This document shows positions 47,300 through 52,393 of a stretch of DNA of 64,000 bases, piece by piece. This DNA is from Pelosinus fermentans DSM 17108 (GTDB lineage Bacteria; Bacillota; Negativicutes; DSM-13327). The notes beneath the pieces are model-generated. The model was not told where the DNA came from and did no database searches. It was given only the letters and a program-made list of their open reading frames with translations. The stretch covers positions 3,497,501-3,561,500 of the forward strand of contig NZ_AKVN02000001.1 of the NCBI RefSeq assembly GCF_000271485.2, read 5' to 3'. The position numbers were made by a program, and so were the translations under genes. Every line of letters begins with the position of its first letter. Within the stretch, counting starts at the first letter, position 1.

Positions 47300-48967
47300 A
47301 TGGATATTGTTCGTTTATCAGTATTGGCTTCATCAATTGGAACCATTGCGATCGTTTTTATTTACATTTATTTATATCTATTATATCGTGAACGCTACAT
47401 GGGAATATGGTCAATAAGCTGGATCATCCTTCTTTCACGATATGTAATTTTTGATTCAGGGATACTCCCTTGGAAGCAGTCCGCCCTGGGCATGTTTATA
47501 TATCAAATACTAATAATTATTAGCGTTCTAATGTTTGTATGGGGTACTCACAGCTTTATGAACAAACCCTTTAGTAAGTGGTGGTTATATGGTGCAGCTC
47601 TCGTCTCTATAGTAAGTACTATATTGTGCTTCTTATTTTCATCCTTGGTCTATAAATTAATGCTCCCTATTTTTATCTGCTGCTTTATAGGTATATGGAC
47701 TGGCATAACTTTTATACAGCATTTACAATTAAAGGGAATTGGTTGTTTAATTACTGGTTATGCTTACATCCTTTGGAGCCTTCTCAATTTTTCTATGCCT
47801 TTTACAATTAGTATCTTATGGTTTGCCCCCTGGGGTTATGCCATTGGCGGAATATTACGCTTTGCTATTGCAATCGGTACACTAATGGTATACTTTGAAA
47901 AAACCAGAACGGATTTAACAAACAAGGAAACCCAATATCGTTTATTAGCAGAGAATGCTATTGATATCATCTTTTCTTATCAATTTTTTCCTGAAAGAAA
48001 AATTAAATATATAAGTCCATCTGCTTTGACAGTTACAGGATATTCTGCTGAAGAATATTACGCAAATAGTAACTTAATATTAGAGTTGATACATCCTGAT
48101 GACATCTCTATATTTAATGAATTTATTACTAATCTTCCATGCTCCCTTGAAATACCTTTGACATTGCGTCTCGTTCGAAAAGATAATACTACTCTATGGA
48201 TTGAACAAAAGTGTGTCCCTTTCTATAATGAAAACGGTTATCTCATAGCATTACAAGGTATTATTCGCGATATCACTTTGCGGAAGAAATTAGAACAAAT
48301 GTCTTCTGTATTTGATCGGATGAATATGGTTGGCAGTATGGCTGCAACTGTTGCTCATGAAATTCGCAATCCGATGACTACGGTGCGCGGTTATTTACAA
48401 GTGATGGGAAGAAAGCACGAATATCAAAAGGATAAAGATAAATTCAAATTAATGCTTGAAGAAATTGATAGAGCCAACTCCATTATCAAAGAATATCTTT
48501 CATTGTCGAGAGAAAAGCTAGTTATTTTAAAACAATGTTCTTTAAACGGTATAATAGAAGCATTATTCCCTTTAATTCAAGCAGATGCTACTTCTTCAAA
48601 AGTATATGTCAATCTTGATCTTGCCCCTGTTCCCGAGTTACTACTAGATGAAAATGAACTGCGGCAACTACTACTGAATTTAGTACGTAATAGCATCGAG
48701 GCGATGCCTGCAGGTGGTGATTTATTAATTCGCACATTTCAGGAAGATTGTAAGGTTGTTTTATCCATTAGTGATCAGGGAGAAGGAATTCCTTCTCATA
48801 TACTCGACAAGCTGGGCACACCTTTTATAACTACAAAAGACACTGGTACAGGTTTAGGTCTTCCTATTTGCTATCAAATAGCCCATCGTCACAAAGCTAT
48901 AATTAAAATCAGTACCAGCCATGAAGGAACTACCTTTTTTGTTTATTTCACTCCACAAATATCATAA
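47300..48967 (+). CDS. Orphan sensor histidine kinase 1: 7-TM, PAS, HisKA, HATPase
   Basis: 555 aa. Seven hydrophobic segments (about 6-29, 35-53, 63-85, 95-115, 118-140, 146-172, 178-200), a PAS domain (about 210-328) and a kinase core. Phospho-acceptor His353 is in AATVAHEIRNPMTTVRGYLQ, the N-box is LLLNLVRNSIEAMPAGG, and the G-boxes are SDQGEGIP and GTGLGLPI. The HEIRNP form and lack of a linked response regulator recall the sporulation kinases (KinA-E) that feed Spo0F/Spo0A. ATG with AGGAGTACTT upstream. Near-twin of the kinase at 50729. Confidence 0.93.
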   Translation: MDIVRLSVLASSIGTIAIVFIYIYLYLLYRERYMGIWSISWIILLSRYVIFDSGILPWKQSALGMFIYQILIIISVLMFVWGTHSFMNKPFSKWWLYGAALVSIVSTILCFLFSSLVYKLMLPIFICCFIGIWTGITFIQHLQLKGIGCLITGYAYILWSLLNFSMPFTISILWFAPWGYAIGGILRFAIAIGTLMVYFEKTRTDLTNKETQYRLLAENAIDIIFSYQFFPERKIKYISPSALTVTGYSAEEYYANSNLILELIHPDDISIFNEFITNLPCSLEIPLTLRLVRKDNTTLWIEQKCVPFYNENGYLIALQGIIRDITLRKKLEQMSSVFDRMNMVGSMAATVAHEIRNPMTTVRGYLQVMGRKHEYQKDKDKFKLMLEEIDRANSIIKEYLSLSREKLVILKQCSLNGIIEALFPLIQADATSSKVYVNLDLAPVPELLLDENELRQLLLNLVRNSIEAMPAGGDLLIRTFQEDCKVVLSISDQGEGIPSHILDKLGTPFITTKDTGTGLGLPICYQIAHRHKAIIKISTSHEGTTFFVYFTPQIS

Positions 48968-48985
48968 AAGCCATAATTAATACAT

Positions 48986-49023
48986 AAGCCCTTTTTCAGT
49001 TTATATATGCTGAAAAAGGGCTT
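48986..49023 (+). terminator. Terminator after histidine kinase 1
   Basis: Perfect 14-bp stem AAGCCCTTTTTCAG (48986-48999) and its complement (49010-49023), 10-base loop, TTTTC tail. Makes kinase 1 a separate transcription unit from the synthase-like gene. Confidence 0.88.
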
Positions 49024-49108
49024 TTCATTTCAAAATTATATATATATCTACTTTTTATCCTATTTTTCTACATGTTTTTACAAGGATTAAAATCCCTTCT
49101 CTCCGTAT

Positions 49109-49176
49109 CCCCTAATTAGGGGGTGATAGTTATGAACATATAAGATCCTTATAGCTAAAGTTCTTACTATAACTAT
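49109..49176 (+). promoter_or_regulatory. Palindrome and inverted repeat in the leader of the synthase-like gene
   Basis: Perfect 14-bp palindrome CCCCTAATTAGGGG at 49109-49122, then an inverted repeat ATAGTTAT (49126-49133) / ATAACTAT (49169-49176) extended by GAAC/GTTC inside. All lie within 90 bases of the start codon, upstream of the AAGGAGAG RBS. The first looks like an operator, the second like an mRNA hairpin close to the RBS. Confidence 0.55.
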
Positions 49177-49194
49177 TATGAAGGAGAGAAAAAT

Positions 49195-50364
49195 ATGACA
49201 ACTACCAATCCAAACTCAATGACAAACATCACAGAATCACCAGAAAGCACAATCAAAATTAGTATAGCAGTTACCCCAGAAGAAAAAAGGGAAATTTACC
49301 ATTTTCGTTACCAAACTTATGTAGAAGAAATGTCTAAGCATCTTGAAGATATAGACCCTGTGAACAAACTACTATATGATGAACTTGACAAATGGACTAT
49401 TTTGTTATACGCAACTATTGGCTCAACAATAATTGCCACTACACGGCTGAATATTGGAACGCTTGAAGATTTTCCAGAAAAGCTAGCATTAACTCTATCT
49501 TTGAATGATTTTCAAGGTTCTTATACGAAAAATGTTGATCACAAATTTGCCTTTATCACAAAAGTAATGGTTGCTCCTTCTTATAGGAGTTCACCTGCAC
49601 TATATCTTCTTATAGTAAAATGTTATGAGATTTGCTGCAATAATGAGGTCCAATTTGGTTTTGGTGCTTGCAATGTTCACTTATTGCGGCTTTATGAACA
49701 AATGGGTTTCCATCGTTATAGCAAAAATTTTGTTGACCCTGGCTACGGCTTATTGGTACCCATTGTCATGCTCGCAGATGATATACAACATTTTCGAACA
49801 GTAAATTCTCCTCTTTTTCGCATAGCTCGGCGTAAAAAAGGAACTGTAAACACTCAAGCCGTTGAATGGTTTCATAAACAATTCGTTAGAAAATCTCCAA
49901 TTATAAATAGTAAACTCATTACAGAGGACGAGCTATGGTCTATTGTATGCAAGTTTCTGCATCATCCGCCAATGGAAGCAATCGCCATACTTCATGGATT
50001 ATCAGAAACAGAAGCAAAAAAATTCCTTCATTCTTGCGGCAGTCTTGTGCAATGCGATACAGGAGATGTCATTACCAATCAAGGAGATATTAGCTATTCC
50101 TATAATATATTGCTTTCTGGAAAGCTAAAATCATTGACTTTTCATCACCCTATTAAAGAATATACCGTATCTGGACAACACTTCGGCGCAAATGGCTTAA
50201 CAGAACACAATAAAAATACAGAGGATATTGCTGCAATTACTCCTACCCAAATCTTAATATTGTCTGGTATGGCTTTCCCACGCTTTTTCCACTCCCAGCC
50301 CGATATTGCTCATAAGATTGTACAAACTATGAGAAGTCTAACCAATAAGTTGGTTAATATGTAA
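49195..50364 (+). CDS. Fusion protein: N-acyl amino acid/autoinducer synthase-like GNAT domain plus cyclic-nucleotide-binding-fold domain
   Basis: 389 aa, no signal or membrane helix. Residues about 20-190 resemble FeeM/LuxI-type acyl synthases of the GNAT fold: EIYHFRYQTYVEEMSKHLED, DELDKWTILLYATIGSTIIA, KVMVAPSYRSSPALYLLIVK and RLYEQMGFHRYS. Residues about 265-385 form a CRP-like beta-roll (CGSLVQCDTGDVITNQGDIS; NILLSGKLKSLTFHHPIKEY; FGANGLTEHN). The phosphate-binding cassette lacks the usual Arg after FGxxxL, so cAMP binding is doubtful. There is no DNA-binding HTH. It may make an acylated signal under control of a small ligand. Product unknown. Confidence 0.75.
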   Translation: MTTTNPNSMTNITESPESTIKISIAVTPEEKREIYHFRYQTYVEEMSKHLEDIDPVNKLLYDELDKWTILLYATIGSTIIATTRLNIGTLEDFPEKLALTLSLNDFQGSYTKNVDHKFAFITKVMVAPSYRSSPALYLLIVKCYEICCNNEVQFGFGACNVHLLRLYEQMGFHRYSKNFVDPGYGLLVPIVMLADDIQHFRTVNSPLFRIARRKKGTVNTQAVEWFHKQFVRKSPIINSKLITEDELWSIVCKFLHHPPMEAIAILHGLSETEAKKFLHSCGSLVQCDTGDVITNQGDISYSYNILLSGKLKSLTFHHPIKEYTVSGQHFGANGLTEHNKNTEDIAAITPTQILILSGMAFPRFFHSQPDIAHKIVQTMRSLTNKLVNM

Positions 50365-50728
50365 CAATAATCATCAATAACTCTTCTACCTCGCTTGAAG
50401 TAATCAATAAAACATAAAGACCAGAGGCCAGCTAATAAAAAAAGGGAAAATAATCTAGAGGATCTTATCTTCAGGTTAATTTCCCCTCTTTTTTTATATC
50501 ATTTGATATTTTTTTATGACGTACCCTCTTTTACATGTCTTATGAAAAAAACCTTCCTCGCTATTAGAGTATAGAAAAGTCTTAGCCATTAATCTCTTTT
50601 ACCAAAAAAGTCCTAAGACGACATATAATTATCATTTATTACATAAATTGTTAAACCATTGGAAGGAAGTTTGTTTTTTTTATAGAAAGGTAATTTATGT
50701 ATATTTAATAGCTGATGTAGGAGTAATC
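50365..50728. other. Intergenic region between synthase-like gene and kinase 2
   Basis: Contains an imperfect hairpin with A-run before and T-run after (about 50437-50497; AAAAAAGGG...CCCCTCTTTTTTT), a likely terminator for the synthase-like gene. The rest is AT-rich promoter and leader of kinase 2. The frame upstream of the kinase is open from 50648 but the real start is at 50729. Confidence 0.6.
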
Positions 50729-52393
50729 ATGGATATTATTCACTTATCGTTAATTGGTTCATCAATTGGAACAATTTCGATCGTTCTAGTCTTCATATAC
50801 CTATATTTATTATATCGTGAACGATACATGGGCATATGGGTAATTAGTTGGCTCATCCTTTTTTCACGATATATTATTTTTGATGCAGGACTTCTGCAAT
50901 GGAAGCAATCCACCTTATATTTAACTGCATATCAAGTGCTAATTTTTATCAGCGTTCTGCTGTTTGTATGGGGTACTTATAGCTTTATGAATAAGCCATT
51001 TAACAAATGGTGGATATATGGTACAGTTATGCTCTCCATCATAAGCGCCGGGTTAAACGTCTTTTTTTCCTCCTTGGTTTATAAATTACTACTACCTATC
51101 TACATCTGCTGCCTAATAGGTATATGGGTCGGTTTAATTTATATACGCAATTTACAACTGCAGGGAATTGGTCGTTATATTACCGGCTATGCCTACATAC
51201 TATGGAGTCTTATCAATTTAACTGCACCTTTTATAATGAACGGCTCAAATTATCTTCCTTTAGCTTACACAATTGGTGGAGTAATACGCCTCTTCATAGC
51301 AACTGGTACTTTAATGGTATATTTAGAAAAAACTAGAGCAGATTTAATTAATAAGGAAACTCAATATCGTTTGTTAGCAGAGAATGCTATTGATGTAATT
51401 TATTCTTATCAACTACAGCCTAAAAAAAGAATTGAGTATATAAGTCCGTCTGCGTTAATGTTCACTGGCTATACCTCCGAAGAATTTTACGCCAACAACA
51501 ATTTAATTTTCGATTTGATACATCCTGATGAACATTCACAGTTTAACGATTTCATCTATAATCTACCATACTCTATTGAATTACCATTAACTTTACGCCT
51601 GGTTCGAAAGGATAAAACAATTCTATGGATTGAGCAAAAATGTGTTCCTATTTATGATAAATCCGGTCAGCTCTCAGCCTTACAAGGAATCATTCGTGAT
51701 ATAACTTTGCGAAAAAAATTGGAACAAATGTCCTCCTTATTTGACAGGATGAATATGGTAGGCAGCATGGCTGCCACTGTCGCTCATGAAATTAGAAATC
51801 CTATGACTACGGTACGAGGTTATTTACAAGTGATGGATAGAAAGCATGAATACCAAAAAGATAAAGAAAAAATCAAACTAATGATCGAGGAAATAGATCG
51901 AGCTAATGCTATTATTCGTGAGTACCTTTCTTTGTCCAGGGAAAAGCTAGTCATTTTTAAACAATGTTCTTTAAATACTATTATTGAAGCTTTATTTCCC
52001 TTAATCCAGGCAGATGCCACTGCTTCCAAAGTATCTGTAAATCTTAACATTAGTGCAGTTCCCGAATTGCTATTGGATGAAAATGAAATTCGTCAATTGC
52101 TGCTAAATTTGGTACGCAATAGTATTGAAGCAATGCCAGCCGGCGGCAACTTGGATATTCACACCTTCTTGGAAGATCACAAGGTTGTTTTATCTATTAG
52201 TGATCAGGGCACGGGAATACCCGCCCACATACTTGATAAATTAGGAACACCATTTATTACTACGAAAGATACAGGCACAGGCTTAGGACTTCCCATCTGT
52301 TACCAAATAGCCCACAGGCACAATGCCACTATTAAAATCAATACCAGTCATGAAGGAACAACTTTTTTTGTATATTTTAATCTCGGAAATTAA
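50729..52393 (+). CDS. Orphan sensor histidine kinase 2: 7-TM, PAS, HisKA, HATPase
   Basis: 554 aa from ATG 50729 (TAGGAGTAATC upstream; the longer ORF from 50648 lacks an RBS). Same plan as kinase 1: seven hydrophobic segments, PAS (about 210-328), HisKA His353 in VAHEIRNPMTTVRGYLQVMD, N-box LLLNLVRNSIEAMPAGG, GTGLGLPI. Kinase 1 and 2 are nearly identical through the PAS and kinase core and differ most in the last two membrane segments, so this is a duplication with likely divergence in what is sensed. No response regulator is adjacent. Confidence 0.93.
   Translation: MDIIHLSLIGSSIGTISIVLVFIYLYLLYRERYMGIWVISWLILFSRYIIFDAGLLQWKQSTLYLTAYQVLIFISVLLFVWGTYSFMNKPFNKWWIYGTVMLSIISAGLNVFFSSLVYKLLLPIYICCLIGIWVGLIYIRNLQLQGIGRYITGYAYILWSLINLTAPFIMNGSNYLPLAYTIGGVIRLFIATGTLMVYLEKTRADLINKETQYRLLAENAIDVIYSYQLQPKKRIEYISPSALMFTGYTSEEFYANNNLIFDLIHPDEHSQFNDFIYNLPYSIELPLTLRLVRKDKTILWIEQKCVPIYDKSGQLSALQGIIRDITLRKKLEQMSSLFDRMNMVGSMAATVAHEIRNPMTTVRGYLQVMDRKHEYQKDKEKIKLMIEEIDRANAIIREYLSLSREKLVIFKQCSLNTIIEALFPLIQADATASKVSVNLNISAVPELLLDENEIRQLLLNLVRNSIEAMPAGGNLDIHTFLEDHKVVLSISDQGTGIPAHILDKLGTPFITTKDTGTGLGLPICYQIAHRHNATIKINTSHEGTTFFVYFNLGN

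Follow-up and report, generated by a model that had tools for sequence, protein, structure and literature searches.

The 64,000-nucleotide stretch of the Pelosinus fermentans DSM 17108 genome analysed here (contig NZ_AKVN02000001.1, positions 3,497,501 to 3,561,500; hereafter the 64-kb window) carries at 47300-52393 three open reading frames (ORFs) on the same strand. They encode a histidine kinase (HK) with a seven-helix transmembrane (7-TM, or TM) sensor domain, kinase A; a fusion protein that joins a GNAT acyl-synthase domain of the FeeM/LuxI type to a β-roll of the cyclic nucleoside monophosphate (cNMP) type; and a second 7-TM kinase, kinase B. With a probability of about two thirds, kinase A and the fusion form a self-signalling pair, whose alleles would each produce and detect a product of their own and represent pherotypes. 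The elements of this reading that are computed directly are the FeeM/LuxI fold of the GNAT domain, the constant linkage of the synthase to a kinase, the variable islands of both proteins, and the co-variation of these islands. An initial annotation of this DNA had placed the same three genes at this position, and this arrangement is confirmed; it had also described the two kinases as near-identical, which overstates a sequence identity of 76% (65% in the TM domain and 87% in the HK part).

The linkage between kinase and synthase was counted over 80 unique full-length fusion loci, all of them from Negativicutes. A kinase with a homologous TM domain is directly adjacent to the fusion at all 80 loci: it lies upstream on the same strand at 72 of them, downstream at four, and is divergently oriented at four. 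The fusion directly follows the kinase at L165 and L168, for example. The initial annotation had tied its functional proposal to the conservation of gene order among relatives. The kinase-synthase order bears this out, being found at 80/80 loci, and the kinase-synthase-kinase order does not, as the position of kinase B is filled at 3/80 loci only, which rules out the three-gene arrangement as a functional unit. Conservation extends to a unit of one kinase and one synthase, to which the second kinase is a local addition. The fusion occurs in 44 of 380 Negativicutes genomes. Among 60 relatives, it is present in 27, each of which also possesses the kinase (27/27), and the kinase occurs alone in two (Fisher test, 4.6e-15). 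Beyond the Negativicutes, no fusion is detected at E<=1e-20 (E-values being calculated per single genome) among 398 genomes sampled across the phylum, in which P. fermentans itself is the sole match and the 13 other listed members of the class belong mostly to non-sporulating groups; none is found among the PLSDB plasmids either. The same genome harbors a second kinase-synthase pair (locus L066, G000:C1:3417821-3420807).

The neighbors of the pair differ between clades. The initial annotation had reported no response regulator nearby, which holds for the ORFs of the 64-kb window and fails for five relatives, in which a response regulator of ~350-370 amino acids is encoded beside the pair (L043:8803-9864(+), L047:6457-7572(-), L049:9192-10274(+), L051:6618-7664(-), and L155). 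It is composed of a receiver domain followed by an AraC helix-turn-helix (HTH) domain in the four cases tested, one of which shares 61% identity with the fifth. The synthase precedes the kinase at L043, L047, L049, and L051, and follows it at L155. The kinases of these five loci are short (450-496 amino acids), and those of L043, L047, L049, and L051 display no PAS match. The output part differs at these loci, and it is therefore the 7-TM domain that stays with the synthase. In one clade, a B12-binding radical-SAM protein is encoded directly 3' of the synthase at at least 25 loci, often with overlapping gene ends (L037:6329-8104(-) and L055:8556-10280(+), for example); this enzyme may modify the synthase product.

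The variable islands emerge from the comparison of the window with the syntenic locus of a close relative, G004. The flanks of the two loci are about 95-99% identical in DNA. At the protein level, the identity of kinase A amounts to 69% in the TM domain, 77% in the PAS domain, and 95.4% in the HK part, and that of the fusion to 65.9% in the GNAT domain, 64% in the middle segment, and 93% in the β-roll. Kinase B is 94-95% identical throughout. Synonymous divergence (dS) reaches 1.24 in the TM domain of kinase A and 1.10 in the GNAT domain; the β-roll has a dS of 0.14 and kinase B one of 0.12-0.23, and 37 flanking genes have a median of 0.14 and a maximum of 0.455. Since divergence is raised at silent sites as well, the islands are, on this comparison of sequences, old alleles and not merely fast-evolving proteins. 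Among the true orthologues shared by the 64-kb window and G004 (median identity 96%), none are more diverged than the fusion (74.1%) and kinase A (81.8%). Relative to genome G003, the fusion is again the lowest (65.6%, for a median of 93.5%), and kinase A (73.3%) is on a par with one short ORF (73.2%). The nearest TM domain to that of the window (72%) belongs to G002, which lies farthest from the window among the four syntenic genomes. The second locus, L066, is nearly invariant between the same two genomes, the window strain and G004, with identities of 99.5% in the TM domain and 97% in the GNAT domain.

The two islands vary together. Over 52 close pairs (HK identity >=80%, 42 loci), TM identity correlates with GNAT identity with an r of 0.93, or 0.81 when HK identity is removed. 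Over the same pairs, the correlation of the GNAT domain with its own β-roll is -0.05 and that of the TM domain with the β-roll 0.02. Bootstrapping over loci places the TM/GNAT correlation between 0.49 and 0.95, and above that of GNAT with the β-roll in 99.8% of the bootstraps; the correlation amounts to 0.75 without Pelosinus. A rho of 0.87 is obtained in the 16 pairs that share no locus. Three Sporomusa species serve as a same-allele control: their TM (92-96%) and GNAT (91-94%) identities are similar to those of their flanks. A global mirror-tree (r 0.91) was set aside as evidence, being mostly shared phylogeny. By analogy, this pattern resembles the signal/receptor pherotype polymorphism of comQXP and agr, with an acyl-synthase as signal maker. 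The GNAT domain is predicted to be cytosolic; as a cytosolic domain exposes no surface to phages or antibodies, its variability would be most naturally explained by a changed product. Only the membrane half of kinase A changes along with it. The idea, already present in the initial annotation, that the synthase makes something that the 7-TM kinase perceives thus gains support from a domain-specific co-variation of sequences.

The assignment of the GNAT half to the FeeM/LuxI type, also made initially, is upheld by profiles and by fold. PF13444 is matched above cut-off by the window fusion. Among 53 fusion homologues, matches at E<=0.1 are obtained with PF00027 in 53, PF13444 in 51, PF21926 (FeeM) in 48 (best E 1.2e-12), and PF00583 in 18. 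The AlphaFold2 model of the fusion has a predicted local distance difference test (pLDDT) score of 92, and the top PDB fold for its N-terminal half is that of FeeM (2g0b), which ranks first in Foldseek with an E of 2.8e-8 and has a VIA Z of 17.5 over 171 of 184 residues. The acyl-homoserine lactone (AHL) synthases TofI, RpaI, LasI, and BjaI are structurally close, and small GNATs are equally close (Z 16-17). With these structures so near, the modeled fold alone leaves the reaction undecided. A sequence search with a GNAT-only profile retrieves TofI (residues 21-70, E 0.28) and not FeeM. PF00765 (Autoind_synth) is matched by only 1/53 homologues (E 0.041), and the exosortase acyltransferase model TIGR03694 is weakly related to the GNAT half (E 6.4e-5, far below cut-off). 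Residues R38, D62, D65, R84, and E168 are invariant in the 53 sequences. The 24/3/19 spacing of R38-D62-D65-R84 resembles the 21/3/20 spacing of LuxI proteins (R24, D45, D48, and R68 in EsaI), the two being compared indirectly, by spacing. In the same indirect comparison, the position of R100 of EsaI seems to be occupied by K123, and no conserved Glu is found at 119-122 for E97. The FeeM/LuxI-fold enzyme of the fusion probably makes an acylated signal.

The C-terminal half of the fusion is a CRP/CNG-type domain that is not followed by an HTH, as initially described. The window β-roll scores 26.6 bits against PF00027, just below the 27.5 cut-off, and its fold gives a VIA Z of about 14-15 with cyclic nucleotide-binding domains and CRP proteins. 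In the phosphate-binding cassette (FGE...R), a Glu occupies position 332 in 8/53 homologues and an Arg position 341 in 1/53; the window protein possesses Ala and Asn instead. As the cassette Glu and Arg, which hold cyclic AMP (cAMP) or cyclic GMP (cGMP), are mostly lost, a cyclic-nucleotide ligand is not expected from the sequence, and gating of the synthase by such a ligand finds no support. The β-roll may tune the enzyme in response to another metabolite.

In the proposed mechanism, the GNAT domain would join an acyl chain, taken from an acylated acyl carrier protein or from acyl-CoA, to an amino-acid-like acceptor, yielding an N-acyl amide. This compound would leave the cell or enter the membrane, and kinase A would bind it through its 7-TM domain, the allelic forms producing and recognising differing products, the putative pherotypes. 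The signal would alter the autophosphorylation of kinase A, and the phosphate would be passed to an unlinked regulator, Spo0A or a Spo0F-like protein here, and to the adjacent AraC-type regulator in the sister clade. The β-roll would tune the enzyme via a ligand other than cAMP/cGMP, or be structural, while kinase B would represent a duplicated receptor keeping one fixed specificity. Spo0A is present in 24/27 fusion-bearing genomes, the three exceptions being incomplete genomes or split genes, and in 10/33 others (Fisher test, 5e-6, a comparison confounded by phylogeny). An output through Spo0A and sporulation is plausible.

Among the rival explanations, the one that survives best is a cell-internal sensing of lipids, in which the enzyme would supply the cell itself with a membrane amino-lipid or a surfactant, which the kinase would monitor as homeostatic feedback and not as a signal between cells. 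The NCBIfam models of OlsB (ornithine lipid) and of the exosortase acyltransferase are indeed weak relatives of the synthase, and the B12-binding radical-SAM enzymes that follow it are weakly similar to lipid-modifying families. This scheme, however, gives no reason for an allelic divergence of enzyme and sensor while the second locus stays nearly invariant, and we regard it as unlikely. A regulated antimicrobial or competition factor is harder still to sustain: the product would hit competitors and the kinase would sense it to control its production or immunity. An arms race would account equally well for hypervariability and raised dS, and the radical-SAM protein of one clade might be a tailoring enzyme, but the pair has no constant association with a transporter or immunity gene, the linked genes being only the kinase, sometimes a radical-SAM enzyme, and sometimes a response regulator.

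A ligand-regulated protein lysine acetyltransferase of the Pat/KATmt type, acetylating the kinase, is very improbable. KATmt likewise combines cNMP and GNAT domains (PMC5861322), but in the opposite order. FeeM comes first as a fold, and PF13444 and PF21926 match far more homologues than PF00583; the residues binding cAMP are lost, and a protein-modifying enzyme should vary in step with the site that it modifies, not with a 7-TM domain. Imported DNA, acquired by recombination, together with a weak constraint on the TM domain of a pair retained for some other reason, can be given equally little credit: raised dS does indicate old segments, either imported or long-maintained alleles, but the conservation of the kinase B TM domain and of the second-locus TM and GNAT domains in the same strain pair argues against a generally weak TM constraint, a soluble enzyme domain varies likewise, and a conserved HK domain separates the two islands.

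Several observations weigh against kinase A and the fusion being a pherotype pair. The syntenic locus is carried by only five Pelosinus genomes, and each species group comprises few genomes. In the 16 pairs that share no locus, the correlations of GNAT with the β-roll (rho 0.74) and of TM with HK (0.69) are also positive, and part of the co-variation is therefore plain relatedness. PF21926 is not matched by the window fusion itself, and barely by the paralogue of its own genome (28 bits for a 27-bit cut-off). FeeM-type enzymes also produce membrane lipids and surfactants. Finally, solo 7-TM kinases with no adjacent synthase occur at L088, L089, L090, L092, L094, L095, and L096; they are possible eavesdroppers, or receptors for other ligands.

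Both kinases score above the Pfam cut-offs for PAS_3, HisKA, and HATPase_c. AlphaFold2 predicts seven long helices for the membrane part (mean pLDDT 88), and the variable TM residues occur within helices as well as loops. The phospho-acceptor of kinase A, H353, is invariant across 56 kinase homologues, as are W41 and R187. The 7-TM domain has no match of weight among Pfam or NCBIfam families. Kinship with GPCR-like and ACER3 structures of the PDB is not claimed, as the Foldseek E-values (>=0.04) and VIA Z (<=13.0) are in the range of any helical bundle. Sporulation kinase models are missed at cut-off (169 of the 775 bits required for KinD), and the best kinase model, AtoS, is also below its cut-off (187 of 646 bits). 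At locus L093, a GGDEF-EAL protein (L093:5937-7763(+)) has an N-terminal membrane part 34% identical to the 7-TM sensor over residues 69-202; this likeness suggests that the sensor domain is also paired with cyclic di-GMP enzymes.

Kinase B may act as a receptor whose specificity is fixed. As it is devoid of the hypervariability of kinase A, it need not detect the same signal. In other signalling families, duplications with subsequent divergence have been reported (PMC5199041). The homologous start of kinase B is the ATG at 50729 and not the TTG at 50648, and the gene is preceded by a gap of 283-364 bp. Because of this gap, and of the hairpin that divides kinase A from the fusion, the three genes probably do not form one operon. 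The coordinates of these and other features are collected in Table 1.

Table 1. Features of the kinase and fusion genes, in positions of the 64-kb window.
Feature	Position	Strand	Evidence or remark
Kinase A (555 amino acids): 7-TM sensor (residues 1-205), PAS (212-326), HisKA/HATPase (335-553)	47300..48967	+	Pfam above cut-off
Kinase A 7-TM domain: hypervariable island, proposed signal receptor	47300..47914	+	Identity and dS relative to G004
Kinase A HisKA and HATPase_c, conserved output part	48302..48958	+	95.4% identity to G004
Terminator-like hairpin, 15 pairs, strong, 3' of kinase A	48986..49023	+	
Promoter-like element ACAAGGA-N16-CCGTATC, possible -35/-10 of extracytoplasmic function (ECF) type	49080..49109	+	
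Strong Shine-Dalgarno and three-codon mini-ORF ATG AAC ATA TAA (ORF 49132-49143)	49119..49143	+	
Fusion: FeeM/LuxI-type GNAT acyl-synthase and cNMP-type β-roll, 389 amino acids	49195..50364	+	
GNAT catalytic domain (residues 16-200), hypervariable island	49240..49794	+	Identity and dS relative to G004
β-roll (residues 265-385), degenerate phosphate-binding cassette FGANGL...N341	49987..50349	+	
Kinase B: paralogue of kinase A, conserved throughout, 554 amino acids	50729..52393	+	Occupies 3/80 loci

The leader of the fusion gene has features of its own. A mini-ORF with an exceptionally strong Shine-Dalgarno sequence is located ~75 bases upstream of many fusion genes, its commonest form being ATG-AAA-ACN-stop (MKT). 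It is found in 46/78 fusion leaders, compared to 0.34 in shuffles, and exactly two codons follow the start in 33 of the 46. These leaders include those of the window, L067, L068, L069, L070, L072, L032, and L066, along with some 40 others. In the 5-Mb genome, GGRGGTGATAGTTATG has two exact occurrences, one upstream of each of the two fusion genes. Mini-ORFs are known to influence the translation of the next gene (PMC8708949). Upstream of the mini-ORF lies a promoter-like AAGGA-N15/16-CGTAT element, which scores >=11 in 20/78 leaders, compared to about two in shuffles; the exact pattern of the window is found once in the genome. A Spo0A box precedes the fusion in 9/78 leaders and a sigma-54 site in 0/78, and neither is a feature of the family. 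No known RNA element of Rfam is matched in the region. An attenuator operating through the pairing of CTCTCC with the ribosome site of the fusion was dropped, the CTCTCC stretch lying inside the promoter-like element.

In Vibrio, the acyl-homoserine lactone synthases of the LuxM/LuxN and AinS/AinR pairs adjoin a membrane histidine kinase. The P. fermentans locus resembles them in that its acyl-synthase gene adjoins that of a polytopic membrane kinase, here the proposed sensor of the product; LuxN senses HAI-1 (PMC8895600). It differs from them by its FeeM/PF13444-type GNAT with a β-roll, its non-hybrid PAS kinase, the lack of LuxU/LuxO, and its occurrence in spore-forming Negativicutes. The FeeM synthases (PF21926, 2g0b) provide the top fold, but at 11-12% identity, and the C-terminal β-roll and the kinase linkage are particular to the present system. 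The fee genes lie in a biosynthetic cluster. The comQXPA system of Bacillus and the agr system of Staphylococcus share with the present one a polymorphic signal maker and sensor membrane half together with a conserved kinase half, and the polymorphism of comQXP is documented (PMC4408185). These systems make modified peptides, whereas the present model requires no prepeptide gene. The PEP-CTERM/exosortase systems, which also hold a kinase, PrsK (PMC1569441), are connected through the weak relation of the GNAT half to TIGR03694, but the kinase is different here and there is no exosortase/PEP-CTERM context. The mycobacterial Pat/KATmt proteins share a cNMP-GNAT fusion; here, the order is reversed, the GNAT belongs to another family, and the cAMP-binding residues are absent.

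To our knowledge, the pherotype systems of bacteria of the Gram-positive lineage rely on peptide signals, and most of the known acyl-signal systems belong to Proteobacteria. It may tentatively be suggested, with slightly more doubt than confidence, that the spore-forming Negativicutes possess a hitherto undescribed, lineage-wide acyl-amide quorum sensing with pherotypes, in which closely related strains would use differing acyl signals to control entry into sporulation or some other developmental switch. If the present reading is true, the acyl-synthase/7-TM kinase pair would constitute a new communication channel in Sporomusa and Pelosinus, which are acetogens and metal reducers, and the 7-TM domain, which has no Pfam or NCBIfam family, would represent a novel class of receptors recognising lipid-like ligands. 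Kinase B, being fixed, would then offer a natural control next to the variable kinase A.

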